Assembly: GCA_012522765.1 (NCBI GenBank)
Contig: JAAYJW010000212.1
Location: 1 to 42,498, forward strand
From: a candidate division WS1 bacterium
GTDB lineage: Bacteria > Armatimonadota > Zipacnadia > Zipacnadales > UBA5352
Reading direction: 5' to 3'
Length of the DNA: 42,498 nucleotides
Position 1 is the first letter of the stretch, and the number at the start of each line of letters is the position of its first letter. Under the pieces are notes generated by a model. The model worked only from the letters and a program-made list of their open reading frames with translations, had not been told where the DNA came from and did no database searches. This document shows positions 5,987 to 36,347 of this stretch, one piece after another. The translations under genes were made by a program, and so were the position numbers.

Positions 5987-7146
5987 TGAACGGCGGTCAT
6001 GACGAGCGCAATCAGCTAAGCATCGGGATTGACTGCCTGCTGGCCGGCGAACGGCCGTCAGGCGTCGAGCGTGCGACGCTTGGGCTGCTGGAGGGGCTCG
6101 CTGAGATCGAGCCGCCGGACCAGCACTTCGCAGTCCTGATAGCTGAGGGGCGTGATGATGCGGTACCGCCGGGCCCGGCGCTCAGAGTGCTGACCGCGCC
6201 CCGGTGGGCAGGCAGGCGGGCGGGTCGAGTGCTCTACGAGCAGCTTATCGCGGCTGCTCGGCTGAGGGCGGAGTCAGTTGACGTGGTTCACGGCCCTGCG
6301 TATGTCCTCCCGCTGAACTGGGACGGGCCATCTGTGGCCACGATTCACGACGCCATCACGGTCTGCCGGCCCGAATGGTGCCAGTGGCACAACGTGGTTC
6401 ACTACGGCATGGTGATGACAGCAAGCGCGCGCCGGGCCAGTGCCGTGGTGGCCCCGAGCGAGTTCACGAAGCAGGAGTTGATCGAGCACCTGGGGGTGGA
6501 GTCGAGTCGGGTGCGCGTCGCGCCGCTGGGGGTCAGCGAGAGTTTCGCGCCCGCGGATGAAGAGGCCGTCGAGCGGCTGCGCGGGCGCTACAATCTTCCG
6601 GAGAAGTATCTGCTGTCGGTCGGCAACCTTGAGCCGCGGAAGAACCTGGCGGGCGTGGTGCGGGCTTTCGAGGCACTCGCGGGCGCGATCCCGCACCACC
6701 TGGTCATCGCCGGGAAGTGCGGATGGAAGTACAAACAGACCCTTGCGGCCATCGAAGGCTCACCGGTGGCGGACCGCATTCGGCGTCTGGACTGGATTGC
6801 CGAGGAGGACCTGTGCGGGCTGTATTCGGGCGCGGAGGTGCTTGTCCAGTGGTCGCTGCACGAGGGTTTCGGCCTCACGCCGCTGGAGGCGATGGCCTGC
6901 GGAACGCCGGTAGTGATCTCCGACGGTGGCGCTCTGCCGGAGGTGGCTGGAAAGGCGGCGATGGTTGTGCCGCTCGATGCCGGCCCGGAGGGGCTTGCAG
7001 GGGCGCTGCGGGAGCTTGTTGATGACGCGCAAGCACGGGCGCGGATGAGCCGGCGGGGGATCGAGCACTCGGCGAAATACAGGTGGGCAGCGCACGCAGA
7101 GGTTGTTGCACGGGCCTACCGGGAGGTCGCGATTGAGGCGCAGTGA
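5986..7146 (+). CDS. glycosyltransferase family 4 (mannosyltransferase-like)
   Basis: A 386-residue GT4 protein. It has a Gly-rich acceptor loop LLAGERPSGVERATLGLLEGL, VVHGPAYVLPL, the TIHDAI segment common in mannosyltransferase-type GT4 enzymes, then donor-domain motifs SVGNLEPRKNLAGVVRAF and E-x7-E in HEGFGLTPLEAMACGTPVV. Its ATG overlaps the preceding stop (TGATG) and the next gene begins inside its 3' end. This places it in the middle of a coupled run of three GT4 genes. The mannose preference is only a resemblance and is not established. Confidence 0.88.
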   Translation: MNGGHDERNQLSIGIDCLLAGERPSGVERATLGLLEGLAEIEPPDQHFAVLIAEGRDDAVPPGPALRVLTAPRWAGRRAGRVLYEQLIAAARLRAESVDVVHGPAYVLPLNWDGPSVATIHDAITVCRPEWCQWHNVVHYGMVMTASARRASAVVAPSEFTKQELIEHLGVESSRVRVAPLGVSESFAPADEEAVERLRGRYNLPEKYLLSVGNLEPRKNLAGVVRAFEALAGAIPHHLVIAGKCGWKYKQTLAAIEGSPVADRIRRLDWIAEEDLCGLYSGAEVLVQWSLHEGFGLTPLEAMACGTPVVISDGGALPEVAGKAAMVVPLDAGPEGLAGALRELVDDAQARARMSRRGIEHSAKYRWAAHAEVVARAYREVAIEAQ

Positions 7147-8383
7147 GCGAGGCGGCAGGCTGGTATACGTGCTGGGCAGCTTTCCCTCGCTGTCGGAGAC
7201 CTTCATCCTGCGCGAGATCCTCGAGCTTGAGCGGAGGGGCCTGCGGATCTCGATCCTGTCACTCGAGCCGGGCGAGGCGGTAGTCCATGCCGATGCCCTG
7301 GGGCTGGCGGAGCGCACGGTGTACCGGCCATCGCCGTTGTCGCTGCGCTCGCTGCTCGCGGGGCTTGTGACGCTTATTCTGCGTCCTTTCGGGACAATCG
7401 GCGCGACGCTGTATGCGGTGAAGTGCATCCTGGGCGCCCCGAACGCCGCGGGGGAGATCATTCGCAGCATGGCGGCGGCGGCATTCTTCGCCTGTGCGCT
7501 GCGGGGAACCAAGCCGAGGCACGTACACGCTCATTTCGCCTCCATGCCCGCTACGGTCGGGCTGCTGCTGGCGCACATACTGGAGACGACTTTCTCAGTC
7601 TCGGCGCATGCGAGGGACCTTTTCGCCGGCGAGACCGTTCTGATGGACAGGAAGACGCGCGAGGCGGAGTTTGTGGCCGTCTGCACGGAGGCGGGGCTGG
7701 AGCATCTGCGGCGGCAGCATCCGATGTCCGCCAGCGGTCGGCTGAACTTGATCTATCACGGAGTTGACGTCGTCGAGTTGATGCCGCTGCCCTCGTCAGA
7801 GCCCTCCGATGATGTGCCGCTTGTCCTGTCGATTGGTAGACTGGTGGAGAAGAAGGGCTTCCCGGTGCTGCTGCGGGCGGCGGCGCTGCTGCGCAAACGT
7901 GGCATCAGCTTCCGCCTGCAGATAGTCGGCGCGGGGCCGGATGAGGCCGACCTGCGGCGCCTGGTGACGGGGCTTTCGCTGGAGAATTGCGTCGAGCTTT
8001 CGGGCGCTATCGAGCACGAGCGCCTGATCCCGCTCTTTCGGAGGGCAGCGGTGTTCGTGCTGGCATCCGTTGTGGCGAGTGATGGCGATCGCGACGGGCT
8101 GCCGAACGTGCTGCTCGAGGCGCTGGCGCTGGGTGTACCGGCGGTAAGCACGCGCGTCTCGGCGATCCCGGAGCTGATCGAGCACGAGGAGACGGGGCTG
8201 CTGGCGAAGCCGGGCGATGCCGAGGACCTTGCCGATCAGATCGAGCGCATGCTCTTTGACGAGGAGCTTCGGGCGAAAGTGGTCGAGCAGGGGCGGCTTG
8301 CGGTGGTGACGCGGTTCGATGTGAAGGAGAATGTGCTGAAGCTGGCCGATCTGTTTGCCAGCGTGATGAGCCGTCGTCGTTGA
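7133..8383 (+). CDS. glycosyltransferase family 4
   Basis: About 416 residues of GT4. The N-terminus reads YVLGSFPSLSETFILREI, a segment usual in colanic-acid-type GT4 enzymes (WcaL/AmsK-like). HAHFASMPATVGLL follows, then the donor domain with SIGRLVEKKGFPVLLRAA and SDGDRDGLPNVLLEALALGVPAVST. The first acid of the usual E-x7-E pair is Asp here. A TTG at 7133 with GGGAGG about 7 bases upstream fits better than the ATG at 7103, which adds 10 non-homologous residues. It overlaps the previous gene by 14 bases. There is a short gap before the flippase gene. Confidence 0.85.
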   Translation: MRRSERGGRLVYVLGSFPSLSETFILREILELERRGLRISILSLEPGEAVVHADALGLAERTVYRPSPLSLRSLLAGLVTLILRPFGTIGATLYAVKCILGAPNAAGEIIRSMAAAAFFACALRGTKPRHVHAHFASMPATVGLLLAHILETTFSVSAHARDLFAGETVLMDRKTREAEFVAVCTEAGLEHLRRQHPMSASGRLNLIYHGVDVVELMPLPSSEPSDDVPLVLSIGRLVEKKGFPVLLRAAALLRKRGISFRLQIVGAGPDEADLRRLVTGLSLENCVELSGAIEHERLIPLFRRAAVFVLASVVASDGDRDGLPNVLLEALALGVPAVSTRVSAIPELIEHEETGLLAKPGDAEDLADQIERMLFDEELRAKVVEQGRLAVVTRFDVKENVLKLADLFASVMSRRR

Positions 8384-22752: not shown

Positions 22753-23184
22753 ATGGAGCAGGCGCAGCAGAGTGTGGCGGGGCGCCGGATCGAGGCTGCG
22801 GCTTTGTTGCTGCTGAGCGTTGCGGTGTTGGTACTTGCGCGGCTGCTCGAGCCCAGTACGAACGGCCACGGTACGCATGAGGCAGTGATGTTGCTGCCCT
22901 GCGGCTTTCGGTGGCTGACAGGGCTGCCCTGCCCGGCCTGCGGGCTGACCACCGCGTTCACGCTGATGGCGCGAGGGGACGTGGCGGGCGCCGTGGCGGC
23001 GCATCTGCTCGGGCCGGTGTTGTATGCGGCGACGTGGATGCTCGGCGCCGGGGCGGCGGTGGCGCTGCTTCGCGGCACGCCCGCGCTCCCTGCCACGGTG
23101 ATGCGTCCGCGGGCCGCACGGATATTGCTGATAGCGTTCGGCGTTGCGTGGGCGGTCAACCTTTTGCGTCATTTTGCGGGTTGA
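22753..23184 (+). CDS. DUF2752-type membrane protein
   Basis: 143 residues with three or four hydrophobic segments and the diagnostic CPACGLT motif at 60-66, followed by ARGD, as in DUF2752 proteins. The family is widespread, membrane-bound and of unknown function; the Cys pair suggests metal or redox binding. It sits 33 bases after the GT-C gene and before the promoter of the export genes. Its presence in a polysaccharide locus may be incidental. Confidence 0.8.
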   Translation: MEQAQQSVAGRRIEAAALLLLSVAVLVLARLLEPSTNGHGTHEAVMLLPCGFRWLTGLPCPACGLTTAFTLMARGDVAGAVAAHLLGPVLYAATWMLGAGAAVALLRGTPALPATVMRPRAARILLIAFGVAWAVNLLRHFAG

Positions 23185-23212
23185 CGCGCCCGCTGTGGCC
23201 GAATCACTGCAC

Positions 23213-23241
23213 TTGCCCGGTTGCTGTTGCTGCGTTATACT
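23213..23241 (+). promoter_or_regulatory. sigma-70-type promoter for the export operon
   Basis: TTGCCC at 23213-23218 and TATACT at 23236-23241 are separated by 17 bases, a good match to the -35/-10 consensus. Transcription would start near 23248, about 35 bases before the ATG of the SLBB export gene, whose binding site is the GGGGGGA run at about 23266-23272. Confidence 0.65.
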
Positions 23242-23282
23242 GCCGCCTGCCCACGAAGAGATCTGCGGGGGGACTGCCCTTC

Positions 23283-24668
23283 ATGGATGCCCGTAGCGAG
23301 TTCCTGCGACTGATCGGCGTCAGCGTCGCGCTGGCTGCTGTCGTGGCGTGCCTGCCGGTGTGGGCGTCCGAGCCCTATCGCCTCGGGATCGATGACGTGA
23401 TCGCCGTGCACGTGCTGTATCACGATGATTTGAGCGTGCCGGCGGCGACGGTGGGGCCTGACGGCATGGTGAGCCTCCCGGTGGTGGGGGAGATCACCGC
23501 TTCCGGCCTGAGCACCGCCGAGCTTGCAGGTGAGATTGCGCGCCTGCTTGCGGCGGAACTTCGCGACCCGCGCGTGACGGTGCGGCTCGTGGCGAGGCAC
23601 CTCACGCCGATCTACGTGCTGGGTGCGGTCCGCTCCCCGGGCGCGTTCGATGTGACTGGTCCGGTGGGGGTGAACGAGGCAATTGCGCTTGCCGAAGGCC
23701 TCAGCCCGGCGGTGATGGGACGGCACGCGGTGGTGATCGACCGCGAGGGTAACGGGCGCGCGCTTGACTTCGGGGTGAGTGGCGCTGAGGTGGGCGCGGC
23801 AGAAATTATGCTGGCACCGGGGGAGACGCTGGTGGTCGGCCCGCAGCTTCTCCTGACCGTGACGGGCCAGGTGCGATCGCCCGGACGCTATCCGCTTGAG
23901 GAGGGCGCGCGTGCGGCGGAGTTGGTGGCCGTCGCGGGCGGGTTGACTGAGGTGGCTGCGGAGCGGGGCATGCTGGTGCGCGCCGATGGCACGACGGTTG
24001 AGGTTGACCTGACCGTGGCGGCGGCCGCAGATGCCGCCACGGATCTGCAGCTTGCGCAGGGGGACCTGCTGATCGTGCCGGAGGTGCGGCGGCGGGTCTC
24101 GCTGGTTGGCGCCTTCGGTACGCCCGGCCGGTACAATCTTGACGAGGGGGACCGCGTCTCGGATGCGCTTGCACTGGCGGGCGATGTCGCGGACGATGCG
24201 CGGCTGGACTCCGCGCTGCTGGTTCGCAGCGATGGCTCGAGCGAGCGAGTTGATGTCGCGGCGATTCTTGGTGCGGAGGAGACGGCGGCTAATCCGCGAC
24301 TTGAGGATGGGGACACGCTGGTGCTGCCGCGTGACACCGAGCGGGTTGCGGTAGTCGGGATGGTGGTGCATCCCGGGCCGATCACATTCAGGCCGGGAAT
24401 GACGCTGCTCGATGCCGTGGCGGCGGCAGGCGGATGGGAGCAGCAGCAGTCGCGGCCGGACAAAGCTGTGCTGTGGCGCCAGTCGGATGGGGGGCCGGTG
24501 ATGGCTGAGTTCGATGCCCAGGCGGTGTTACGCGGGCAGGAGGGTGTTGAGAATCCGGCCCTGCTGCCGGGTGACGTGGTCTTCATTCCGCGGGACGGCT
24601 CAATCACACGCGACGAGGTCGCGCGCCTGCTGCTGGGCGTATCGGGGCTGCTGCGGATCATGTTCTGA
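23283..24668 (+). CDS. polysaccharide export outer-membrane protein (Wza-like, SLBB domains)
   Basis: 461 residues. The N-terminus is a signal sequence with either a lipobox-like VVAC or a type I site after VWA. A Poly_export domain follows at about 34-105 (YRLGIDDVIAVHV...GPDGMVSLPVVGEI), then four SLBB-like units starting near 110, 191, 270 and 353, each with a V-G-x-V-x-x-PG core. Proteins of this kind form the periplasmic and outer-membrane conduit for capsular polysaccharide or EPS. The real start is the ATG at 23283; the frame upstream to 22911 overlaps the DUF2752 gene and is not coding. A promoter lies just upstream and the co-polymerase gene follows after 2 bases. Confidence 0.9.
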   Translation: MDARSEFLRLIGVSVALAAVVACLPVWASEPYRLGIDDVIAVHVLYHDDLSVPAATVGPDGMVSLPVVGEITASGLSTAELAGEIARLLAAELRDPRVTVRLVARHLTPIYVLGAVRSPGAFDVTGPVGVNEAIALAEGLSPAVMGRHAVVIDREGNGRALDFGVSGAEVGAAEIMLAPGETLVVGPQLLLTVTGQVRSPGRYPLEEGARAAELVAVAGGLTEVAAERGMLVRADGTTVEVDLTVAAAADAATDLQLAQGDLLIVPEVRRRVSLVGAFGTPGRYNLDEGDRVSDALALAGDVADDARLDSALLVRSDGSSERVDVAAILGAEETAANPRLEDGDTLVLPRDTERVAVVGMVVHPGPITFRPGMTLLDAVAAAGGWEQQQSRPDKAVLWRQSDGGPVMAEFDAQAVLRGQEGVENPALLPGDVVFIPRDGSITRDEVARLLLGVSGLLRIMF

Positions 24669-24670
24669 TC

Positions 24671-26731
24671 ATGTCATCGCGACCGCTTGAGCCGATCACC
24701 CTGCGCGATCACCTGCGGCTGCTGCGCCGCAGAGGTGGGCTGTTGCTGGGAGTAGTCGGGTTGTGCTTTGCAGTGGCCGCCGCCTACGTGCTGCTAGGCA
24801 CCCCGATCTACCAGGCGCGCGCGACGCTGGTGGTGGCGAATCAGTCGGGGCCGCGTGCGGCGGTCCTGTCGGCTGCCGCGCCCGTGCTATCTATGCTCGG
24901 AGATCCGGTCTCAAGCCTTGGTGGCGATGATCTCGCGACGCAGGTGGAGATAATTGACAGCCGCCCATCGCTGGAGACCGCATGGGGGCTGATGAACGAC
25001 CATCCCGACCTGCTGCGGCGTCTCGTGTCGGCGGGGATGAGCGATGAACTGCTGGAGGAGCTTCCGGGGCTGATTGAGCGCCTGCCTGTCCAGCCGCCCC
25101 CCCTGGCATGGCCCGAGCCGTGGCAGGAGGTGCTTGACACGCTGCATGTGGGGCCGGTTGCGGATGCTGAGTTGATAGAGGTCCGCCTGCAGTCGGCGGA
25201 CCGGGAGCAGGCGCGGGACTTCGTGAACGCGCTCGCGCTGTCCTACCTCGGGCGCAGCCTCAGCGAGGCGCGCTCGACGACGAGACGCACGCGTCGCTAC
25301 GTGGAGGAGCAGATCGCCGACACCGAGGCGCGGCTTGCGGAGGCTGAGGAGAGCCTGCGTCTCTTCGGCGAGGATGCGGGCACGGTGGCGCTTGATGAGA
25401 GCGCGCGGCAGCAGATTGGCCTGCTCGTGCGGCTCTCCGAGCAGGCGTCTGTGGCCGAATCGACGATGAAGGCGCGCGCTGCCATGCGTGAGGAGTTGAG
25501 CGCGCGCCTCGAGGGGCTGGATGCCACTGTTGTGGCGGCGACCATCATGCGGCGCACGCCGGAGATTCCCGAGCTGCAGGTGGCGCTGGCGGAGGCCGAG
25601 GCAGAGCGCGTTGCCCTGCTGGAGGAGTATGCTTCGGAGAGCATGCCGGTGCGGAGCGCCGCAGCCAGGGTGGATGAATTGCGCCGCGGGCTTGAGTCGA
25701 CAGCCGCTGAGGTGGTAGATTCGCGGCAGGAAGCGCTCAATCCGGTGGCGCAGGAGGTTGTGCAGGAGCTAATCCTCGCCGAGGCGGAGCAGATGGCGGC
25801 GGAGCAGTCACTGCGCGTGCTTCGGCGGGCGGCGGGCGGGGTCGAGGCAGAGCTTGCCGGGTTGCCCGCCGAGCAGGTCCGCCTGCTCAAGCTGCAGCGC
25901 GAGATGCAACTGCTTGAACGGGTGTACCTCGCGCTCAAGGAGAAGCAGCAGGAGTACGAGATTGCGGAACAGACGCGCGGGCCGTCCGCACGCCTCGTGG
26001 AGCATGCAATCGCGGCGGACAGACCGATTCGTCCGCGGCCGGTGCTGACGCTCGCGGCGGGCATTGCCGCGGGGCTTCTGCTGGGGTTGCTGTCGGTGGT
26101 GCTGGTCGAACAGCTTGACGAGAGGCTGCACGAGCCGGAGCGGTTGGCGGAAGCGTCGGGCCTGCCGGTGCTGGCATGCCTTGGCGGCAGATGGCGAGAC
26201 GGCGCGCCGGATGAGGCATCGGCGGCGGCGCTGAGGTCGCTGCTGAGGCAGACGGTCGCGTCATCGCTGCATCTGCCGGCGCCCTCAATGTTGGTGCTTG
26301 CTGAGGCCGAGGGTGGCGATGATGCACCGGCGGTAGCTCGGGCACTGGCTGCCGTGGCGGCGGAGGAGGGCCGGAGGGCGCTTGTAATCTCTCTGGATAC
26401 GGGGGATGGGGCCCCGGGCGAGGCCGGACTGGAGCAGGTGCTGCAGGGTCGCTCCGCAGACCAAGTTTCGGAGATACTGCTGGCGCGCGGAGTTGACCTG
26501 GCGCTGATTGTACCGCCCGGTGGGAGCGGTGTGCTGGCCGCGTTGCCGCTGGTTACTGCCGATCGTCCGGTCCTGCTCGTGGCTGACCTTCGGCGGGCCT
26601 CCAGCGGTTCGGTGCTGGGTGTGCGGATGCTGGCGGAGCAGGTTGGCGGCCGTCTGATGGGCATCGTCGCGACGGGGGGGGGACGTAGCAGTTCGCGGTA
26701 CTATCCGCCGCGGGGGGAGTCGTGCGTGTGA
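24671..26731 (+). CDS. Wzc-like polysaccharide co-polymerase with degenerate ATP-binding motifs
   Basis: 686 residues. It has a first membrane helix at about 18-37, a periplasmic Wzz domain with long coiled-coil-prone helices (about 180-430, rich in Glu, Ala, Arg), and a second helix at about 456-481. A cytoplasmic domain follows whose layout matches a bacterial tyrosine kinase. Where the Walker A motif should be it reads AEAEGGDDAPA (544-554) with no Lys; the A-prime site reads ISLDT and the Walker B site reads ALIVPP, so the usual Asp residues are shifted or lost. One YY pair near the C-terminus remains. It probably sets chain length without phosphorylating. It pairs with the preceding SLBB gene. 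Confidence 0.85.
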   Translation: MSSRPLEPITLRDHLRLLRRRGGLLLGVVGLCFAVAAAYVLLGTPIYQARATLVVANQSGPRAAVLSAAAPVLSMLGDPVSSLGGDDLATQVEIIDSRPSLETAWGLMNDHPDLLRRLVSAGMSDELLEELPGLIERLPVQPPPLAWPEPWQEVLDTLHVGPVADAELIEVRLQSADREQARDFVNALALSYLGRSLSEARSTTRRTRRYVEEQIADTEARLAEAEESLRLFGEDAGTVALDESARQQIGLLVRLSEQASVAESTMKARAAMREELSARLEGLDATVVAATIMRRTPEIPELQVALAEAEAERVALLEEYASESMPVRSAAARVDELRRGLESTAAEVVDSRQEALNPVAQEVVQELILAEAEQMAAEQSLRVLRRAAGGVEAELAGLPAEQVRLLKLQREMQLLERVYLALKEKQQEYEIAEQTRGPSARLVEHAIAADRPIRPRPVLTLAAGIAAGLLLGLLSVVLVEQLDERLHEPERLAEASGLPVLACLGGRWRDGAPDEASAAALRSLLRQTVASSLHLPAPSMLVLAEAEGGDDAPAVARALAAVAAEEGRRALVISLDTGDGAPGEAGLEQVLQGRSADQVSEILLARGVDLALIVPPGGSGVLAALPLVTADRPVLLVADLRRASSGSVLGVRMLAEQVGGRLMGIVATGGGRSSSRYYPPRGESCV

Positions 26732-26792: not shown

Positions 26793-28460
26793 ATGCTGCT
26801 GCTGATCGGCATCGACGGCGCGACCCCGGACCTCGTGGAGAGACTGACCTCCACGGGGCAGATGCCGAACCTCCGCGCGTTGATGCGCCACGGCGTCTAC
26901 GGCCATCTGCAGTCGTCGGCGAACCTCGACCCATGCTGCGCGTGGTCTTCGCTGCTGACGGGCGTCAATCCGGGCAAGCACGGCGTCTGGGGCATGCAGA
27001 ACCTGATGCCGGAGAGCTACCAGTGGCATCCCGCCCATGCGAGGATGCTCCGAGCGCCCACGCTGCCGCAGATGCTCAGCGAGCGCGGCCATGAGGCAGG
27101 GACCGTCTTCGTCCCGATGACCTTCCCCGCGCGTGAGGCTGAGTGGACGACGGTATCAGGATGGCTCGCGCCCTCAAGCGATGCTGAGGGCTTCGCCCAT
27201 CCGGGACGCGTCGCCTCCATGGCCGCGCGCAAGCTGCGGGATGTGCCGCTGAATGTGCGTGTTGGGCCGCTTGCGGCTGCGGGACGGTATCAGGAGGCGC
27301 TGGAGCAGGCGATCGAGGCGATGCGCGGCAAGGCAGCCTTCATTGAGGAACTGCTCGCCGATCACCGCTGGGACATGCTGGCGGTGAACTTCGTGGAGCT
27401 TGAGCGCATGTTGCGCTGGTGCTGGCACTTGTTTGACCGCAAGCACTCGTCGTTCCGGGAGGAGCTTTACACCGCACACGGCAAGATCATCACACAGATG
27501 CACGAAGAGGTAGATGCCATCATCGGTCGCCTGATGGAGGCGCTTGAGCCCGATGACTATCTGCTGATCGTCTCCGGCTATGGGATGGGGCTCAACAGTC
27601 GTGCGGCGCTGTGTGTGCCCGAACTGATGGGTTATCTCGACCTTTTCGCCACGAGGTCATCGGCCGAGGGGCTGTGGCACGACCTGATGAGCCGGTCAGC
27701 GCGTCTGATTGATGGCGCCCTGGAGACGCTGCAGGGCATCCTGCCCGCTTTCCTGGCAGACATGTTGCCCCAACCGCTGGAACAGGAGCAGCCGTCGCGC
27801 GGCGAGAGCGATTCGTGGCTTGACTACGAACGAAGCTGGGTCATACCGGCGCCAGGCGGCCATCTCTACTTCCATCATGAGAACGAGTTCCCGCACGGGA
27901 TTGTGAGCAACGGGACATCGGACCGGCTGTCGCTGCAGATCTCGTCCGCGCTGCAAACTGCAATAGACCCCGCGACCGGACGCCGGCCGCTGGATTGGGC
28001 CCGCGACCGCGAGAGGGTCTGCTCCGGACCGTTCATGAACCGCCTCCCGCACCTTGTGACGCGCTGGGATCACAAGCGCGTCGTGGAGGGTCTCACTGCA
28101 ACGGGAAGAGACGGGCGCGTGAAGGTGGCACGCCCTCCCGCGGGGCGTAACTCACCGGGCCTGCCCGCTCCGGAGGGGATCATCATCGCCGCGGGAAAGG
28201 GCCTGCACAGTGGCGTGCGGATCGAGGGTGCGCGGGTGGAGGACGTCGCCGCTACCGTCATGTACTTGCGTGGTGAACGGGTGCCTACGTACTTCGATGG
28301 ACAGGTGCTGCGGCAGGCATTCGTGGATGCGATGATGTCTCGCCATCCGATTCGTACCATCGAGCGGGATCTGCCACGGATCGTAGACGACCCTGCGCGG
28401 GCGGAGGCAGCATCCGCGGTCGTTGCGGCACATCTGCGAGCAAACGGCTACGACCTCTGA
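26793..28460 (+). CDS. alkaline phosphatase superfamily protein, predicted inactive
   Basis: About 555 residues. It shares its fold and many segments with the next gene: GIDGATPDL at the start, WSSLLTGVNPGKHGVWG, MPNLRALM, and WCWHLFD. Ligands normally needed are changed. The Asp and His of the TDSLQHW segment are Glu204 and Arg208; the SDHG motif is SGYG (Gly262-Tyr263, codons 27576-27581); and the C-terminal His region reads GLPAPEG. The nucleophile position is Ser52 instead of Thr. Metal-dependent catalysis is therefore unlikely. The ATG at 26793 starts exactly at the conserved strand; a TTG (26742) and a GTG (26787) are alternatives. It may serve as partner or glycan-binding subunit of the next protein. 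Confidence 0.78.
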   Translation: MLLLIGIDGATPDLVERLTSTGQMPNLRALMRHGVYGHLQSSANLDPCCAWSSLLTGVNPGKHGVWGMQNLMPESYQWHPAHARMLRAPTLPQMLSERGHEAGTVFVPMTFPAREAEWTTVSGWLAPSSDAEGFAHPGRVASMAARKLRDVPLNVRVGPLAAAGRYQEALEQAIEAMRGKAAFIEELLADHRWDMLAVNFVELERMLRWCWHLFDRKHSSFREELYTAHGKIITQMHEEVDAIIGRLMEALEPDDYLLIVSGYGMGLNSRAALCVPELMGYLDLFATRSSAEGLWHDLMSRSARLIDGALETLQGILPAFLADMLPQPLEQEQPSRGESDSWLDYERSWVIPAPGGHLYFHHENEFPHGIVSNGTSDRLSLQISSALQTAIDPATGRRPLDWARDRERVCSGPFMNRLPHLVTRWDHKRVVEGLTATGRDGRVKVARPPAGRNSPGLPAPEGIIIAAGKGLHSGVRIEGARVEDVAATVMYLRGERVPTYFDGQVLRQAFVDAMMSRHPIRTIERDLPRIVDDPARAEAASAVVAAHLRANGYDL

Positions 28461-28461
28461 G

Positions 28462-30120
28462 ATGCCACCCCTGGTGGTCGTCGGCATTGACGGACTGCCT
28501 CCGGCACTCGCCGAGCGTTTCGCAGCGGACGGGACCATGCCCGCGCTCGGCCGGCTGATCGGATCCGGCTGCTTCGGCACGCTCCGCTCCACCCCCAACT
28601 ATCAGAGCGCCTCGGCATGGACCTCCATCGCGACGGGCGTGAATCCCGGTCGCCACGGGATTGTGCACTTCACCAACCCGATCCGCGGCAGCTATCAGTT
28701 TGAGCAGATAGACGCGCGCTCCCGCCAGGCAGCCACCATCTGGCGATTGCTTTCCGACGCCGGTCGGCGGGTTGCGGTGCTGAACATGCCGGTGTCGTAT
28801 CCGGCAGAGCCGGTGAATGGCGTCATGATCTCCGGATGGCTCTGCCCGTCACCATCAGCCGAAGGCTTCACGCACCCGCCCAAACTGGCCGCACAAATCG
28901 CAATGCATGTTGGCGACTACCCGATCCACCCCGATGTGCGGCGGCATGCCGAGGGCGGGCGCTACGATCGTGCCGCATCGGCGGCTCGCAGCGGGATCGA
29001 GACGAAGCTGAGCGTCGCGCAGTGGCTGCTGGAAGCGGAGCGCCCGGATCTTCTGTGCGTTGTCGTCACGGAGACGGACTCGCTCCAGCACTGGTGCTGG
29101 CATCTGCTGGACGAAGCACACCCGATGCACGATACCGTCACGGCTTCGCACTGGCGCGAGAGCATCAAGAGCGTGTACCGGGCGCTCGATGACGGGATAG
29201 CGAAGCTCCTGCGGGCTGCGGGCGATGCCGCCGACCTGCTGATCGTGTCCGATCACGGGCAGGCCCCCAACTCCGGCGGCCAGGTCCTGCTCAGACCGTG
29301 GCTGATCGACGCGGGCTACCTCGCGCCGGTCGGACGCAGTGCCCCGAGGCGTGTCGCCGACCGCATCCTCCGCGATGGCTTCGCGATGCTTCGAAGCGGC
29401 CTCCCCAACCGCTCGAAGGCGTGGCTCAGGGCGCATCTGCCATCGTGGCAGACGCGCACCCAGGCGGGAGTGTGCGGCGTATCAGCGGACTGGTCCCGCA
29501 CCCGCGCATTCACCGAGGTCGGCCACGTCTTCATCAACCTGCGTGGCCGTCAACCGAGGGGGATCGTGGAGCCGGGCACTGAGTATGAGCTTCTGCTGGA
29601 TGAGCTGTCCGAGGGTCTGCTGTCGCTGAGGGACGCGGACACCGGCGCCGATCTCGTGGCAGCGGTTGAGCGGGGGGCGGCGCATTTTCATGGCCCGGAG
29701 GCAGATCTGATGCCCGATCTGCTCGTACACTGGCGGCACGATGTTGTCACCCGCCGGGGCATCTGGTCATCGGGCGCGGGGGATAGGCTGGTTGAGCGGA
29801 AGGCCGCGCCACGGCTGCCTCCCGGTGCGCACCACCCGGACGGTACGCTCATCGCGTATGGGCCGTCCTTCCGACTGGCGAGCGAAGCTGGAGTGCGATC
29901 CATCTACGACGTCGCGCCGACGATTGTGCATCTGCTTGGATGCTCCGTGCCCGGTCATTTTGATGGCGCAGCGATGCTCGATCTACTTGCTGAGGAGGCG
30001 AGGGAGGAGGTTGAGTCGCTGCCGGTGAATGATACGGCGCCGGAGGCTGGACGGAATGCGCGCGCAGGTGACGACGAGGTGGTGATGGAGCGCCTGCGCT
30101 CGCTCGGATACATCGAGTAG
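28462..30120 (+). CDS. alkaline phosphatase superfamily phosphodiesterase/phosphotransferase
   Basis: About 552 residues with the full ligand set of the nucleotide pyrophosphatase/phosphodiesterase-type group: Asp10 in GIDG, candidate nucleophile Thr54 in AWTSIATGVNPGRHGI, Asp206 and His210 in ETDSLQHW, Asp264-His265 in SDHG, and His457-His458 in AHHPDGT. These bind two metal ions and cleave or transfer phosphoesters. There is no signal peptide. The ATG at 28462 follows the previous stop by one base, so the two genes are coupled. In this locus the substrate may be a phospho-substituted glycan or lipid-linked intermediate, by inference. An ATG at 28423 would overlap the previous gene by 38 bases and adds no conserved sequence. 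Confidence 0.83.
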   Translation: MPPLVVVGIDGLPPALAERFAADGTMPALGRLIGSGCFGTLRSTPNYQSASAWTSIATGVNPGRHGIVHFTNPIRGSYQFEQIDARSRQAATIWRLLSDAGRRVAVLNMPVSYPAEPVNGVMISGWLCPSPSAEGFTHPPKLAAQIAMHVGDYPIHPDVRRHAEGGRYDRAASAARSGIETKLSVAQWLLEAERPDLLCVVVTETDSLQHWCWHLLDEAHPMHDTVTASHWRESIKSVYRALDDGIAKLLRAAGDAADLLIVSDHGQAPNSGGQVLLRPWLIDAGYLAPVGRSAPRRVADRILRDGFAMLRSGLPNRSKAWLRAHLPSWQTRTQAGVCGVSADWSRTRAFTEVGHVFINLRGRQPRGIVEPGTEYELLLDELSEGLLSLRDADTGADLVAAVERGAAHFHGPEADLMPDLLVHWRHDVVTRRGIWSSGAGDRLVERKAAPRLPPGAHHPDGTLIAYGPSFRLASEAGVRSIYDVAPTIVHLLGCSVPGHFDGAAMLDLLAEEAREEVESLPVNDTAPEAGRNARAGDDEVVMERLRSLGYIE

Positions 30121-30130
30121 GGTGGTTTTC

Positions 30131-31018
30131 ATGCTGGCCGAGAAGCTGCTGGCGTGTCTGGCGTGTCCTGCATGCGGTGGCGGTCCCTTACGCCTGGATA
30201 CCGAGCGGAGCGCGGAAGAGACGATTGTTGAAGGGAGTCTCGGCTGCCCCGAGTGCAAGCGCTGGTACCGTGTGGTTGACGACATCCCGCGCTTGATGCC
30301 GCCGGGACTGGCCTCGAATCTCCGCGCGGGCGACGAACACTGGTCCGAGTGGCGAGAGGCGATGCTGGACTTCCTCCAGTGGCGCGAGGACGCATGGTCG
30401 GACGAGCAGGCCGCTGCGGAGCGCCGGAGCGCCGCCCTCGCGTTGCACGAGCAGTTCCTCGAGTTCTGCGCTCTGCCTGACGGTCCGTTCGACTGTCTCG
30501 ACATCGGCGCGGGTGCGGGCCAGCTATCAGATCTGATTGGCGGCGACTGCACCTACGTCGGGATAGACCCGCTGCCCGGCGGGCGGGCGCCGGGAGGCGA
30601 CCTTCCGCCGCACATGCCCCGCGCGTCACGCCCGGTGAGTCTCGTGCAGGCGGTGGGGGAGGTCCTGCCCTTCGCCCGGAGCAGCTTCGACGTCGTGCTG
30701 ATGCTGGGCTCCCTCGATCATACCTGCCGGCCTGACGAGGCTATCGCAGAGGCCGCGCGCGTCCTGCGAGATGGGGGAACATTGTGCATCCTGCAGGGAA
30801 AGTCATCGCGCAGAAGCTGCGGGATCGGCGGGGCGCTGCGTTCCGTGGTAAGCGGCATAGGCGGCGGCCGGAAGGTATCCGCGCGTGACACGCACCTGCA
30901 CAGGTTCGGTCTGAAAGAGCTTGAGGCGCTTGTGTCGGAACGCTTCGTCGTCGCGGCCTGCAGCGAGGAAGCAGATCGCATCTTCCTGCGCGCCATCTCG
31001 CAGTCGCCCGAAGCCTGA
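30131..31018 (+). CDS. Trm112-like zinc domain fused to class I SAM methyltransferase
   Basis: 295 residues. The N-terminus is a Trm112/YcaR-like zinc ribbon with Cys12-x2-Cys15 and Cys39-x2-Cys42 (CPEC), followed by YRVVDDIPRLMPPG. A Rossmann methyltransferase domain begins near 120 with CLDIGAGAGQLSDLIGG (SAM motif I), then YVGIDPLPG and LPFARSSFDVVLMLGSLDH (post-motif segment), and EAARVLRDGGTL. Proteins with this arrangement methylate a small molecule, sugar or lipid; an O-methyl decoration of the glycan would fit. GTG at 30122 could add three residues. It follows the phosphodiesterase gene by about 10 bases. Confidence 0.82.
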   Translation: MLAEKLLACLACPACGGGPLRLDTERSAEETIVEGSLGCPECKRWYRVVDDIPRLMPPGLASNLRAGDEHWSEWREAMLDFLQWREDAWSDEQAAAERRSAALALHEQFLEFCALPDGPFDCLDIGAGAGQLSDLIGGDCTYVGIDPLPGGRAPGGDLPPHMPRASRPVSLVQAVGEVLPFARSSFDVVLMLGSLDHTCRPDEAIAEAARVLRDGGTLCILQGKSSRRSCGIGGALRSVVSGIGGGRKVSARDTHLHRFGLKELEALVSERFVVAACSEEADRIFLRAISQSPEA

Positions 31019-31044: not shown

Positions 31045-32223
31045 ATGGCGCCTTCCACCGATGATCGTCCGATCCGACTGGCTTTCTTCGACGCCTACGC
31101 CCTTGAGGAGGGCGCCGGACTCGTTCTGCTGGAGCTTGTCCGGCGGCTGGATCGCCAGCGATTCCACCCCGTCGCGCTGGTCCCGCGCGATGGCCCACTG
31201 GTGTCATTGCTGGAGGCAGTGGGCTGCCACGTGGATGTCATGGAGCCTGCGGCGCCGCTCAACGGCTACGGCGAGCAGCTTCCCGTCGCGGGGCCGTTGA
31301 CGCTGTGCAAGGCCGCGCTCTCGTTGGGCGCTTATGCTGTGCGCGTGGCGGAGTGGCTGCGGCGCTCAGAGGCCGAGGTGCTGCACTGCAATCAGACGCG
31401 CGCGGCTATCACGGCCGGGCCAGGTGCTCGTCTCGCGGGTGTGCCCGTGCTGTGGAACGTGCGTATTCGGGAGCGGATGCCGCGGCATGCCGTCTGGCTG
31501 GCGGGAGCCTGCTCTGACACGATCGTGCCCCTGACGGCCTGCACCTTCCGCGGGCTTGCGGAGGAGGAGCGGCTCATCTCCCGGTCGCGGATCATTCGCA
31601 ACGCCGTTGACCTCGCGCAGTTTCACCCCGGCCGGGACGGAGAGACTCGCGCCGCCCTCGGCATCCCGCCGGACGCTCCGGTGATACTCTCCGTCGGCTG
31701 CCTCGTTCCGCGCAAGGGCTTCGACCTGCTGATTCGCGCGATGCCTCACGTGCTGACGCAGTTCGCGTCGGCGCGTCTTCTGATTGCGGGCGGAAACGTG
31801 GATGGCCTGTCGGATCACCGATCGGAGTTGGAGCATCTCGCGCGTAGCCTCGGCGTTGTGGGCGCCATCCGCCTCCTCGGGCGCAGAGATGATGTGCCGG
31901 AACTGCTGCGCACCTGCGATCTGTTCGCGCTGGCATCGCGGCATGAGGGTGATCCGGCGTCGGTGCTTGAGGCGATGGCAACCGGGCGCCCGGTGGTGGT
32001 CACGCCCGCGGCGGCTCCTGCCGTCGAGGATGGGATCAACGGCGTGGTGCTGCCGGAGGAATCTCCGGAGGCTCTGGCCCGGGCGATCTGCCGCCTGCTG
32101 GCCGACCGCTGCCTCGCGGGTCGCCTCGGCGCCTCGGCCCGCGCAACCGTGGAGGCGCACCACGACATCAACGCGATGGTGCGCGCGTATGAGCGGGAGT
32201 GGCGTCGGCTTGCGGGCCGCTGA
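31045..32223 (+). CDS. glycosyltransferase family 4
   Basis: A 392-residue GT4 enzyme starting at an ATG with GGGGGGA about 6 bases upstream. It has acceptor-domain FDAYALEEGAGLVLLELV and a LHCNQTRAAITAGPGARLAG segment, and donor-domain SVGCLVPRKGFDLLIRA and RHEGDPASVLEAMATGRPVVV with E-x7-E spacing. It closes the plus-strand polysaccharide run and converges with the next gene, with only 27 bases between stops. No clear terminator is visible there. Confidence 0.86.
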   Translation: MAPSTDDRPIRLAFFDAYALEEGAGLVLLELVRRLDRQRFHPVALVPRDGPLVSLLEAVGCHVDVMEPAAPLNGYGEQLPVAGPLTLCKAALSLGAYAVRVAEWLRRSEAEVLHCNQTRAAITAGPGARLAGVPVLWNVRIRERMPRHAVWLAGACSDTIVPLTACTFRGLAEEERLISRSRIIRNAVDLAQFHPGRDGETRAALGIPPDAPVILSVGCLVPRKGFDLLIRAMPHVLTQFASARLLIAGGNVDGLSDHRSELEHLARSLGVVGAIRLLGRRDDVPELLRTCDLFALASRHEGDPASVLEAMATGRPVVVTPAAAPAVEDGINGVVLPEESPEALARAICRLLADRCLAGRLGASARATVEAHHDINAMVRAYEREWRRLAGR

Positions 32224-32250: not shown

Positions 32251-33426
32251 TCACAAGTCGCGCGTTCTGAGCAGGCGCTCGTAGACGCGCTCGACGCCGC
32301 CCACGAAGCGTTCATGGTCGAAGAGCTTCGCTCGCTGCATGCCCGCCTCGCCGAGGCGCTGTGAGAGCGGGCGATCGCTCAGCACCCTCACGATGGCGGT
32401 TGCCAGCAGAGCCGGGTTGCCCGGCTCGACGAGCAGCCCGGTCGTACCGTGCACCACGGCCTCAGAGGAGCCGTCAACGCGCGTGCCCACCACCGGCAAC
32501 CCCACAGCGCCGGCCTCGAGGTAAGCGACGCCGAATGGCTCCCATGCCGATGAGAGTGCGAAGAGGTCGCAGGCCCTGAGCAGGCGGGGGATGTCGCTGC
32601 GAGGACCAGCGAGGATGACGCGGTCGGTTAGATCGAGGCGCCGGACCATCTGGCGCACGGTCGCCTCGCGGGGGCCGCCTCCGGCAATCAGCCAGTGAAC
32701 CCTCGGCATCAGCGCCGACAGAAGGGCGGCCGCTCCCAGCAGCACCTCAGGCGCCTTCTGCGGCGCGAGGCGCATGGCGGAGCCGATCAGGGGTGTGTCG
32801 GGAGGGAGGTTGAACTCCGCGCGCACCTCATGGCGGTCTTGCTCGCGCCCCTCGGGTGAGAAGCGCTCGAGGTCAACTGACGGCCGCACCACGTCGTATT
32901 GACCGGGATGGCCCACGCCGCGCAGCAGGCCCTGATCGCGCATCGCATCGGAGCATGCGATGAGCGCCTGGTGGCCCTGCACGGAGAGGTATGCGGCAGT
33001 GGTGTAGAGCGCTCCACGGACCGCGTCGGCCGCCACCTGCCACTCCCAGCCCCAGATGTGCGCGACGTTGACCGGTGTTGGGCACAGGCCGGTCGCCAGC
33101 GGCGCCAGAAGACGCGACTTCGAGCCATGCGAGTGGACTATGTGCGGCCGCTCGCGCTGGAGGATGCGGGCAATCTCGAGCGTAGCCCGCAGATCGGCGC
33201 GCGCATGCGGTTCGCGTCGCATGTTCGGCACGATCAGGACGTCCAGGCCGCGCGCGCGCATCTGTGGCAGGAGACTTCCCTCGCCGCTATCCGATGGCCC
33301 GACGGCCAGCTTCACGGCGTATCGCTGCGGGTCCAGACGCGCCGCCAACTCCATCGCCAGCAGGGTCGCTCCTCCGCCGGCAACGTGCGGCAGCAGGTGG
33401 AGGACCCGCACTCGGTCGTCTGTCAA
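32251..33426 (-). CDS. glycosyltransferase family 4
   Basis: A 391-residue GT4 protein on the opposite strand. It has HLLPHVAGGGATLLAMEL at the start, HIVHSHGSKSRLLAPLA, then SAMRLAPQKAPEVLLGAAALL and WEPFGVAYLEAGAVGLPVVGTR with the E-x7-E motif. It begins with TTG, backed by a GGGGGGA about 6 bases upstream. It is transcribed divergently from the GH106-like gene across a 101-base gap, so it has its own promoter; no clear -35/-10 pair was seen there. Confidence 0.86.
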   Translation of the reverse strand: MTDDRVRVLHLLPHVAGGGATLLAMELAARLDPQRYAVKLAVGPSDSGEGSLLPQMRARGLDVLIVPNMRREPHARADLRATLEIARILQRERPHIVHSHGSKSRLLAPLATGLCPTPVNVAHIWGWEWQVAADAVRGALYTTAAYLSVQGHQALIACSDAMRDQGLLRGVGHPGQYDVVRPSVDLERFSPEGREQDRHEVRAEFNLPPDTPLIGSAMRLAPQKAPEVLLGAAALLSALMPRVHWLIAGGGPREATVRQMVRRLDLTDRVILAGPRSDIPRLLRACDLFALSSAWEPFGVAYLEAGAVGLPVVGTRVDGSSEAVVHGTTGLLVEPGNPALLATAIVRVLSDRPLSQRLGEAGMQRAKLFDHERFVGGVERVYERLLRTRDL

Positions 33427-33527
33427 GGCAATCCCCCCGGTTCAGTATCCCGCCAATGTGCCGTGCAGGCTTCGCTGCGGGGTGCGCACAATCCTCCGTC
33501 CCGGTCGGAATGCGGAAGGTGACGCGC

Positions 33528-36347
33528 ATGCAAAGCGCGAAGACCGCAGTGACGGATTTCCCTCCACCGACGCTCCCTGGAGTGATGGAAATGCCTGGCG
33601 CTCGACGCAGCCTGCCTGAGATGCTCAGAGATCCCTCCGCCGCTCACAGGCCGGCGATGTTCTGGTTGCTCAATGGTCCTCTCACCGCCGATCTCGTCCG
33701 CGAACAGATCCGTCAGATGGCAGACCGGGGCTGTGGCGGTTTCTTCCTGCACCCGATGGGCGAGCGCTTCCGCGTCAGAGACTTCATCTCCGGCATGGAG
33801 CCGGCGTACCTCTCGGACGATTACTTCGACCTGGTGCGTATAGCCGTGGAGGAGGCCGGCCGGTTGGGTCTTTACGCGTGGCTTTACGACGAGGGTGGCT
33901 GGCCGAGCGGTACCGCGCAGGGACTGGTGCTGGAGGGGCATCCGGAACTTGCCGCACGTGTCCTGCGCGCCGGTGGTACCGGTGAGGTCATCGCGGAGGT
34001 GTCGCTTGGAGAGCAGGTGATCGCCTTCACTCGGGAGATCGTTGAAGGCGCGGTGGACCATCTCAACGAGGATGCCACCCGGCGCTTCATCGAGGTGACG
34101 CACGAGCGCTATGCGGAGGCGGTGGGGGACCACTTCGGCGGAACCATCCCCGGCATCTTCACCGACGAGACCTCCATCCGAGGCATGGTCGGCACCGACA
34201 TGATCCCATGGACTGCGAGTATGCTCGAGGAGTTCCGCTCGCAGCGAGGCTTCGATCTGCAGGCGTCCCTGCCCGCGCTGTTCTCCGCCGATGCGCTGGG
34301 CGTGGATCTGGCGGAGCATCTCTCTGAGGCGGAGATCGCGGCGCTTCGATGTGAGTTCACCGAACTGTGGACCGACCTGTTCGAGGCAGCCTACTTCGAG
34401 CCGATCAACCGCTGGTGTGAGGAGCACGGGCTGATTCACACAGGTCACGTCGGCGGTGAGGACAACCTCCCCGACCACCGCCGCGGTTTCGGCCACTTCT
34501 TCAAGACCGCAGGAACGCTCCACGCTCCTGGCGTTGACGCTATCTGGCGGCAGATATACCCCGGAGAGGACAACTTCGCTTTCCCCGGCTTCGCTGCCTC
34601 GGCGCTGGCGCAGAGGGCATGGCAGGAGCCCGGCGAGTCACCATGGCACAACCTCGCGCTCAGCGAGACCTTTGCCGTCTACGGCCACTCCCTAACGCCG
34701 GAGCAGATGCGGTGGGTGGCCGACTATCAGTTCGCCTTAGGCATCAACTACATCTGTCCGATGGCCCTCTACTCGCACACCGGCGGCGGGCACTGGGTCG
34801 GCACCATGAGCCACCTCGGCGAGGGTAATCCGCTGTGGGAGAGCTTCTCCTCCTTCGCTGAGCACTGCGCGGTGATGAGCACCGCCATCCGCGAGAGCGA
34901 ACCGATCGTTGACGTCGCGGTCTACTACCCGATTGAGGCGGCGTGGCTCGGTGGCGAGGGGATGGAGGCGGCGTGGCAGTCGCTGCGGGAGATCTGCGCG
35001 AGCCTTCAGGCGCGGCAGGTGGCCTTCGACTTCATTGATGCGCGCACACTCGCCGCAGGTGAGGTCGCTGGCGGCTGCCTTGCATCCGCGGGGCAGCTCT
35101 ACGGCACGGTGATCGTTCCGCAGACGCCGGTCATGTCGGCCGACGTCCTGAGCGCACTCGCGGATCTCCGGGCTTCCGGCGGGCGTGTGGCTTTGTGCGG
35201 AGAGCGTCCGCGCATGGCCGCCGAGTTCGGCGGCGGCGAGGCGTTCAGCGAGGCGCTTGGACGGGTGCTGCAGGACGCGGTTGAGATGGATCGCGCCTAC
35301 GCTCAGCGGAACATGGGCGGAGACGATCCGAGGGGCCTCGGCATGTCCCTCACTTTCCCCCTTGACGGCTTCACCACTGCCTATCTCGGGCCCGGTGGCT
35401 CCGCGCAGTTCACCGACCGCGAGGTGGCCGATGGCGCCTGTCTGCTCGTGCCGCCGGAGGAGATTGCGCGGCTGGCGGAACTGCTGCTGCTGGTGGTGGG
35501 CCGCTATGAGTTGCAGCTTGACAGCCCGCAGCCCGACCTGATGGTGTCAAGTCGCGCAGCGGGTGAGGTCGGAGTCCACCTGCTGCACAATCAGGGTGAG
35601 CGGGCGATCGAGCCGAAGCTGATGCTCACCGCCGACGAGCCGCGGGTGGTCGAGCTTCGCGACAGCCTCACCGGAGAGGTGCGGTTGCTGGCGGTACATC
35701 GCGAGGTGAGCGAGACAACCACCTTCAGTCTCAAGCTCCTCCCGGGCGCATCGGCGCTGATCACCACCTGCCCGATCGAGGGCGATCCTCCCATCGCTCC
35801 GCGCAAGATGGCGCTCATGGCTATCAGCACGGAGGTGCGGGCGCAGTCGCTCGAGATCGTTCGGGAGCACGTCATCACGGCCGAAGGCGATCTTCAGGTG
35901 CGGGAGGCAGCCTACGTACCGGCGGAGGTGCCGGCCGATTTTCATCTTCAGCCGCTGGAGGAGCTTGGTCTGCGGGAGTTCGCGGGCACGGTGCGCTACA
36001 TCATCGACCTCTACGTGCCGACCGGCAATGAGGGTCGGACGTTGTTCCTCGACCTGGGCGAGGCGGGATGCGTGGTGAGGGCGTGGCTGAACGGGGAGGA
36101 GTTGGGGGAGAGCGCATGGCCGCCGCACCTGGTGGAGATCACGGAGATCGCCGTCGAGGGCATCAACGATCTGGTCGTTGAGGTGACGACAACGCTGGCC
36201 AATCAGGTCGCGCGTCCCGAGGTGGTGGAGTGGGCGCGTGCGAAGGGCTGGGCCAACGCCTACTATGAGCGGACGCTACCGTGGATGCAGCAGAGCCTGC
36301 GTTCAGGCTTGGTCGGGCCGGTGCGGGTCCTGCGCCAGTACCGGTGA
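33528..36347 (+). CDS. GH106-like glycoside hydrolase (alpha-L-rhamnosidase-type)
   Basis: About 939 residues. The N-terminal catalytic region shows the GH106-type pattern: FWLLNGPLTADLVREQIRQM, a loop GGFFLHPMGERF, then RLGLYAWLYDEGGWPSGTAQG. A long central part continues through GHVGGEDNLPDHR. A galactose-binding-like beta-sandwich lies near the C-terminus (about 820-939: GTVRYIIDLYVP ... CVVRAWLNGEELG), which is usual in this family. No signal peptide is visible, suggesting cytoplasmic use of oligosaccharides. The ATG at 33528 is preferred because GGAAGG lies just upstream; the frame is open back to 33264 but that part is low-quality. The specific sugar (rhamnose or another 6-deoxy hexose) is not certain. 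Confidence 0.75.
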   Translation: MQSAKTAVTDFPPPTLPGVMEMPGARRSLPEMLRDPSAAHRPAMFWLLNGPLTADLVREQIRQMADRGCGGFFLHPMGERFRVRDFISGMEPAYLSDDYFDLVRIAVEEAGRLGLYAWLYDEGGWPSGTAQGLVLEGHPELAARVLRAGGTGEVIAEVSLGEQVIAFTREIVEGAVDHLNEDATRRFIEVTHERYAEAVGDHFGGTIPGIFTDETSIRGMVGTDMIPWTASMLEEFRSQRGFDLQASLPALFSADALGVDLAEHLSEAEIAALRCEFTELWTDLFEAAYFEPINRWCEEHGLIHTGHVGGEDNLPDHRRGFGHFFKTAGTLHAPGVDAIWRQIYPGEDNFAFPGFAASALAQRAWQEPGESPWHNLALSETFAVYGHSLTPEQMRWVADYQFALGINYICPMALYSHTGGGHWVGTMSHLGEGNPLWESFSSFAEHCAVMSTAIRESEPIVDVAVYYPIEAAWLGGEGMEAAWQSLREICASLQARQVAFDFIDARTLAAGEVAGGCLASAGQLYGTVIVPQTPVMSADVLSALADLRASGGRVALCGERPRMAAEFGGGEAFSEALGRVLQDAVEMDRAYAQRNMGGDDPRGLGMSLTFPLDGFTTAYLGPGGSAQFTDREVADGACLLVPPEEIARLAELLLLVVGRYELQLDSPQPDLMVSSRAAGEVGVHLLHNQGERAIEPKLMLTADEPRVVELRDSLTGEVRLLAVHREVSETTTFSLKLLPGASALITTCPIEGDPPIAPRKMALMAISTEVRAQSLEIVREHVITAEGDLQVREAAYVPAEVPADFHLQPLEELGLREFAGTVRYIIDLYVPTGNEGRTLFLDLGEAGCVVRAWLNGEELGESAWPPHLVEITEIAVEGINDLVVEVTTTLANQVARPEVVEWARAKGWANAYYERTLPWMQQSLRSGLVGPVRVLRQYR

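Follow-up and report, generated by a model that had tools for sequence, protein, structure and literature searches.

The locus analyzed here raises the question of why a protein of the AlkP superfamily that lacks most of the catalytic residues of its family is encoded directly upstream of a paralogue in which these residues are complete. The window (the whole stretch of 42,498 nucleotides that was analyzed) contains an exopolysaccharide locus of the Wza-Wzz-Wzy type with the two AlkP-superfamily genes, A and B, inside it. The window genes upstream of the pair also encode GT4/GT2 glycosyltransferases, a MurJ/Wzx-type flippase, a Wzy_C polymerase/ligase, a TPR protein and a PMT-type membrane protein, and the Trm112p-methyltransferase gene 3' of B is followed by further GT4 genes. 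The features around the pair are:

22911..24668, forward strand: Wza-like SLBB polysaccharide export protein (PF02563, PF10531)
24671..26731, forward strand: Wzz/GNVR chain-length protein, directly 5' of A (PF13807, PF02706)
26793..28460, forward strand: gene A, putative NPP/PhnA-type AlkP-superfamily pseudoenzyme, 555 aa (PF01663, ligand table, nucleophile column, AlphaFold2)
28462..30120, forward strand: gene B, predicted to encode an active bimetal phosphodiesterase/phosphatase of 552 aa (PF01663, seven canonical catalytic positions, AlphaFold2)
30122..31018, forward strand: Trm112p + methyltransferase protein, directly 3' of B (PF08241, PF03966)
31045..32223, forward strand: GT4 glycosyltransferase, order conserved in sister genomes

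Some observations stand apart from the pair. A transketolase C-terminal-half gene is located at positions 973-1950 of the window, and a lipoyl/octanoyl transferase-like gene (PF21948, 11231-11920) is flanked by a GT4 gene and by the gene for Wzy_C. Two long open reading frames overlap on opposite strands: the first (33264-36347, forward strand) has a partial match to a GH106 rhamnosidase and the second (33423-34523, reverse strand) has no Pfam match, yet has hits in sister genomes. The genome that contains the window (G000) displays 33 PF01663 matches, many of them on short contigs, which amounts to a large AlkP-superfamily complement.

Homology and fold of A and B

A sequence-only reading of this DNA had described A and B as adjacent genes of similar length that are separated by a single base and align along their length, and the coordinates (1-base gap, 555 and 552 amino acids) agree with this description. 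In a BLASTP comparison the two proteins are 32% identical across 517 columns (E = 1e-64), indicating that the alignment represents real homology, and the motifs GIDG, W-S/T-S..TGVNPG-x-HG and WCWHL are present in both proteins. PF01663 was identified in A (E = 8.6e-26, 91.8 bits) and in B (E = 2.9e-32, 113 bits) against a curated cut-off of 23. Structure prediction of the single proteins with AlphaFold2, one of the checks that had been proposed, resulted in confident models of A (pLDDT 92.1, pTM 0.89) and B (pLDDT 92.0, pTM 0.91) with a near-identical order of elements, and the best PDB matches of both in Foldseek are PhnA and NPPs (A to PhnA/NPP with prob 1.00).

Xac NPP (2gsn, 7n1s) and PhnA (1ei6, 3szy), the best PDB matches in sequence as well as fold, have the same fold, but A and B are only 10-17% identical to them, are longer (~550 aa compared with ~400 aa), contain extra helical insertions and are presumably cytoplasmic. 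No signal peptide was seen at the N-terminus of A, which begins MLLLIGIDG. As PhnA and the NPPs do, B carries the catalytic Ser/Thr and the Asp-x3-His, Asp-His and His ligands, whereas A is without the catalytic set. A thus appears to be a member of PF01663 by descent and not as an enzyme, with the profile and fold of the family but not its catalytic residues; B combines the profile with the full catalytic Ser/Thr and six metal ligands, from which phosphodiesterase activity is predicted.

Catalytic positions in B and their replacement in A

The catalytic set in B is complete and consists of Asp10, Ser49, Asp206, His210, Asp264, His265 and His457. The positions in the two genes are:

28606..28608, forward strand: B Ser49, predicted catalytic nucleophile, invariant in 8/8 B and aligned with the catalytic Thr of PhnA/NPP
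29077..29091, forward strand: B Asp206-x3-His210, metal-1 ligands, directly after strand 197-202 in the model
29251..29256, forward strand: B Asp264-His265, metal-2 ligands
29830..29832, forward strand: B His457, metal-1 ligand
26931..26933, forward strand: A Pro47, where the family has Ser/Thr as nucleophile; Pro is shared by 9/9 A orthologues, and the register was confirmed against PhnA and Xac NPP
27402..27416, forward strand: A Glu204 and Arg208, in place of the metal-1 Asp and His; Arg208 is shared by 9/9 A orthologues, and 99% of other members have His there
27576..27581, forward strand: A Gly262-Tyr263 at the metal-2 Asp-His positions, Asp lost in 9/9 A orthologues (A/P/T/V/G), His kept in 2/9
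28164..28166, forward strand: A Pro458, in place of the third metal-1 His; 9/9 A orthologues have Pro, Gln or Ala at this site, and 99% of other members have His

The metal ligands that had been read as kept in B (Asp206, His210, Asp264-His265 and His457) were confirmed, as were Glu204, Arg208 and Gly262-Tyr263 at the same sites in A, and the last site, for which only the absence of a His had been reported, is occupied by Pro458. The loss of the nucleophile (Pro47 in A, Ser49 in B) is an addition to this list of residues. In a family-profile alignment, phosphonoacetate hydrolase and Xac NPP have their catalytic Thr in the Ser49 column (the PhnA entry 3t02 has Ala at this position where 3szy has Thr), and the non-A members carry Thr (87), Ser (75) or Lys (1). 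Column 49 was chosen as the nucleophile position over column 54 because it holds Ser/Thr in 162 out of 163 members; column 54, the Ser/Thr after Trp53, was rejected since it also contains P, A, V, I, M or N in members with intact metal sites. An alternative metal register, B Asp217/His220 as placed by HMMER against Xac NPP, was likewise rejected because these columns are <85% conserved, whereas Asp206/His210 are 99% conserved and are located directly after a strand.

The first metal Asp (Asp10 in B, Asp8 in A) is kept in the A clade (eight Asp, one Glu). Position 204 is still an Asp in 7/9 A orthologues, which makes Glu204 particular to the window copy, and the metal-2 His is replaced by Tyr or Cys in 7/9. 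Overall, five out of seven catalytic columns that are conserved in the family were lost in A compared with 6 out of 52 other conserved columns (Fisher p 0.0016), indicating that the loss was targeted and does not reflect general erosion. Judged by these residues, A is expected to be catalytically inert and B to be active.

Seven residues (Pro47, Arg208, Trp66, Trp118, Thr104, Thr120 and His420) are invariant in A and uncommon among the other family members, suggesting a remodelled pocket that is still constrained. With the exception of Pro47, these polar and aromatic gains could also point to an enzyme whose active site has moved or is of another kind and that performs, for example, metal-free acid-base chemistry via Arg208 and His420. 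This explanation is very unlikely, as all nine A orthologues have Pro at the nucleophile position, and neither a newly conserved Ser/Thr/Cys nor a metal-type Asp/His cluster stands out among them.

Conservation of gene A and of its pairing with B

Orthologues of A were identified, one per genome, in nine out of ten genomes of one Armatimonadota (Zipacnadia/WS1) family (the tenth genome is 59% complete), and the A clade is absent at a comparable score from all 281 other Armatimonadota genomes scanned. A GTDB-wide scan recognized 540 relatives, and among the best 80 of the 540, for which identities to A were read, only Zipacnadia/WS1 entries are >31% identical to A. The named relatives of A come from MAGs assigned to Candidatus Zipacnadia, to "Armatimonadetes bacterium UBA5352" and to candidate division WS1, which identifies the host as an uncultured armatimonadotan. 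A constitutes one clade with 100% support, B is likewise monophyletic (100%), and the best tree joins the two as sister clades, though weakly supported (81/54). The stem of the A clade is long (1.25 substitutions per column, compared with 0.37 for B) and the rates within the two clades are similar, the pattern of a change in function that was followed by constraint. The mean column identity is 72% in A and 73% in B, and dN/dS in the closest genome pair (G001/G002) is 0.137 for A and 0.240 for B, the values for other pairs being less reliable with dS ~1 or >1.

These data bear on whether A is simply a decaying, functionless duplicate, which had been named as a possible refutation together with a lack of conservation of the pair. 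As would be expected of decay, a frameshift or deletion interrupts the gene in G005 and G007, and A has a degenerate LGY motif at its C-terminus. The genomes compared are draft assemblies (mostly MAGs where named), in which assembly error and real decay are indistinguishable as causes of these two breaks and of a break in B in G008. However, A is intact and full-length in 7/9 genomes (~50-62% identity to the window copy), is under strong purifying selection (dN/dS 0.14), has Pro47 and Arg208 fixed throughout and retains a confident fold. Decay is therefore largely refuted and has become the least credible explanation. The earlier view of an enzyme with a dedicated pseudoenzyme gained strong support from the family-wide split in ligands, the purifying selection and the near confinement of the loss to the catalytic site, and A is very probably a pseudoenzyme maintained by selection.

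The search of related genomes that had been suggested revealed that the tandem, with the same split in ligands, is conserved in the Zipacnadia/WS1 family: B adjoins A in eight out of nine genomes that carry A, and in 8/8 genomes with both genes the junction is a 1-2 base gap or a GTGA overlap. The Wza-Wzz-A-B-methyltransferase order is kept in most genomes where contigs reach. Wzz is located directly upstream of A in seven out of eight sister genomes examined, with G003 as the exception, and the methyltransferase follows B in most sister genomes (in G008 there is no match between B and the next paralogue). Furthermore, the locus can contain additional AlkP paralogues, C after the methyltransferase and D after the GT4 gene, with full ligands where readable (L054, L056, L058; also L052 and L057). 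Both are present in G005, G007 and G009, G008 contains C alone, and G002 has a C-type copy at a contig end; C and D are absent from the window and G001, which retain A-B.

In G003, an intact A is relocated to a position near a contig end, beside a HAD-type hydrolase/phosphatase gene (PF13344/PF13242) that follows it on the same strand (locus L053, 9022-9861 and 9996-11663). Neither B nor Wzz was found in this genome, which is 91% complete, and its methyltransferase gene is located elsewhere beside unrelated genes. Subject to that completeness, G003 counts against a strict dependence of A on B. It is the first argument for the main rival explanation, in which the pseudoenzyme A would function independently of B, as a sensor or scaffold in the cytoplasm for a nucleotide-sugar or other phospho-ligand that would act on Wzz, the methyltransferase or a glycosyltransferase, its adjacency to B being a relic of tandem duplication. 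The position of A elsewhere, directly after Wzz and upstream of B, fits this explanation, and the frozen A-specific residues Arg208, Pro47, His420 and Trp118 suggest a defined pocket. However, the start/stop coupling with B is conserved in 8/8 genomes and the pair is broken in a single genome, a MAG of 91% completeness, leaving a B-independent role a genuine possibility that falls short of being probable.

Possible roles of the pair and known parallels

The best reading overall, for which the odds are slightly favourable, is that A is a fixed pseudoenzyme that serves as a non-catalytic subunit or ligand-binding regulator of B. It is supported by the loss focused on the active site, the losses shared by nine orthologues, the purifying selection, the long stem, the junctions in 8/8 genomes, the retention of A-B where C and D are absent (the window and G001) and the confident NPP/PhnA-like models of both proteins. 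G003, the breaks in G005, G007 and G008 and the weak A-B sisterhood (81/54) count against it. The sequence-only reading is thus confirmed and strengthened as an observation and partly supported as an interpretation. For the pseudoenzyme status of A the evidence from sequence is strong, with homology, loss of residues, conservation, selection and tight gene spacing all read directly from the genes; the suggested heterodimer does not yet have such a basis. The conserved coupling makes a heterodimer plausible and G003 weakens it; the chance that A works physically with B is evenly balanced.

Most likely, a B-like cytoplasmic NPP/PhnA-type phosphodiesterase gene was duplicated in tandem inside the exopolysaccharide operon before the radiation of the Zipacnadia family. 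In A, Pro would then have replaced the nucleophile and most metal ligands would have disappeared, with the fold retained. B is predicted to hold two metals on Asp10, Asp206, His210, Asp264, His265 and His457 and to use Ser49 for the attack on a phosphate ester or diester, and translational coupling would ensure that A is made in step with B. The most likely role of A would be that of a non-catalytic subunit, prozyme-like activator or ligand-binding regulator of B, in which the remodelled and conserved pocket (Pro47, Arg208, Trp66, Trp118 and His420) may still bind a related ligand. This ester or diester is probably part of a nucleotide-sugar or of a lipid-linked glycan intermediate; a phosphorylated glycan or lipid-linked substrate is consistent with the Wza/Wzz/Wzy/glycosyltransferase neighbourhood and the NPP fold matches. 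A more specific model, an obligate NPP-type A-B complex that gates exopolysaccharide synthesis, with A sensing a phosphorylated precursor in its metal-free pocket and switching B, is rather unlikely.

Dead paralogues that activate an enzyme are known as prozymes from Trypanosoma brucei AdoMetDC (PMC5201418) and deoxyhypusine synthase (PMC3663545). A resembles these in being a dead paralogue under selection beside a presumed live one, but it belongs to another superfamily, A and B are operonic, and A is a putative partner and activator of B. No description of prozyme-like control in the AlkP superfamily or in polysaccharide operons was found in the papers searched; if the preferred reading is true, A-B would extend the short list of known dead-paralogue activators to the AlkP superfamily. 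The pair would also make it possible to test whether NPP/PhnA-like tandems work as complexes, and a natural copy that has long been kept after the loss of catalysis offers a direct handle for separating substrate-binding from catalytic residues by comparison of A with B.

YejM/PbgA is an AlkP-fold envelope regulator of LPS synthesis that was long argued to be non-enzymatic. It is anchored in the membrane and has an LtaS/EptA-type periplasmic domain, whereas A looks soluble and NPP-type. Its active site has been reported to be intact, with Mg-dependent phosphatase activity (PMC7576196), which makes it a looser parallel to A.

B and the C/D paralogues group with proteins adjoining glycan genes in many phyla, a family that we take to correspond to COG3379 ("AlkP superfamily phosphohydrolase/phosphomutase"). 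Compared with these COG3379-like proteins, the nucleophile and the metal site were lost together in the A clade only. The sequence-only reading knew of no such pair in a polysaccharide locus, and searches of open-access full text on COG3379, on pseudoenzymes of the AlkP superfamily in polysaccharide loci and on clusters that combine wzy with alkaline phosphatase likewise found nothing on point and no precedent, which is not proof of novelty. Nor was a function found in the open-access literature searched for multi-gene PF01663-like arrays or for cytoplasmic NPP/PhnA-like proteins beside glycan genes.

Tandems of the family are widespread: at least two members per locus were found in 35 out of 76 distant loci scanned, with up to five within ~13 kb, and these loci come from numerous bacterial phyla as well as some archaea. 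Among the non-A members with readable sites, full metal ligands are present in all but three; the sporadic losses concern the metal-1 Asp and His in L096, a change of His210 to Ala in L100 and a change of His457 to Arg in one of the L089 copies. Among the loci scanned, only in the A clade has one member of a coupled tandem lost the nucleophile together with the metal site in a fixed manner. The L096 copy (5971-7566, a Euryarchaeota MAG) has ISLMRIQY in place of the metal-1 Asp and His and keeps the nucleophile and the metal-2 site, representing an independent partial loss. Arrays of four to five PF01663-like genes (L087, L089, L099 and L079) occur in Acidobacteria, TA06 and Chloroflexota, and the ligands are kept in nearly all copies.
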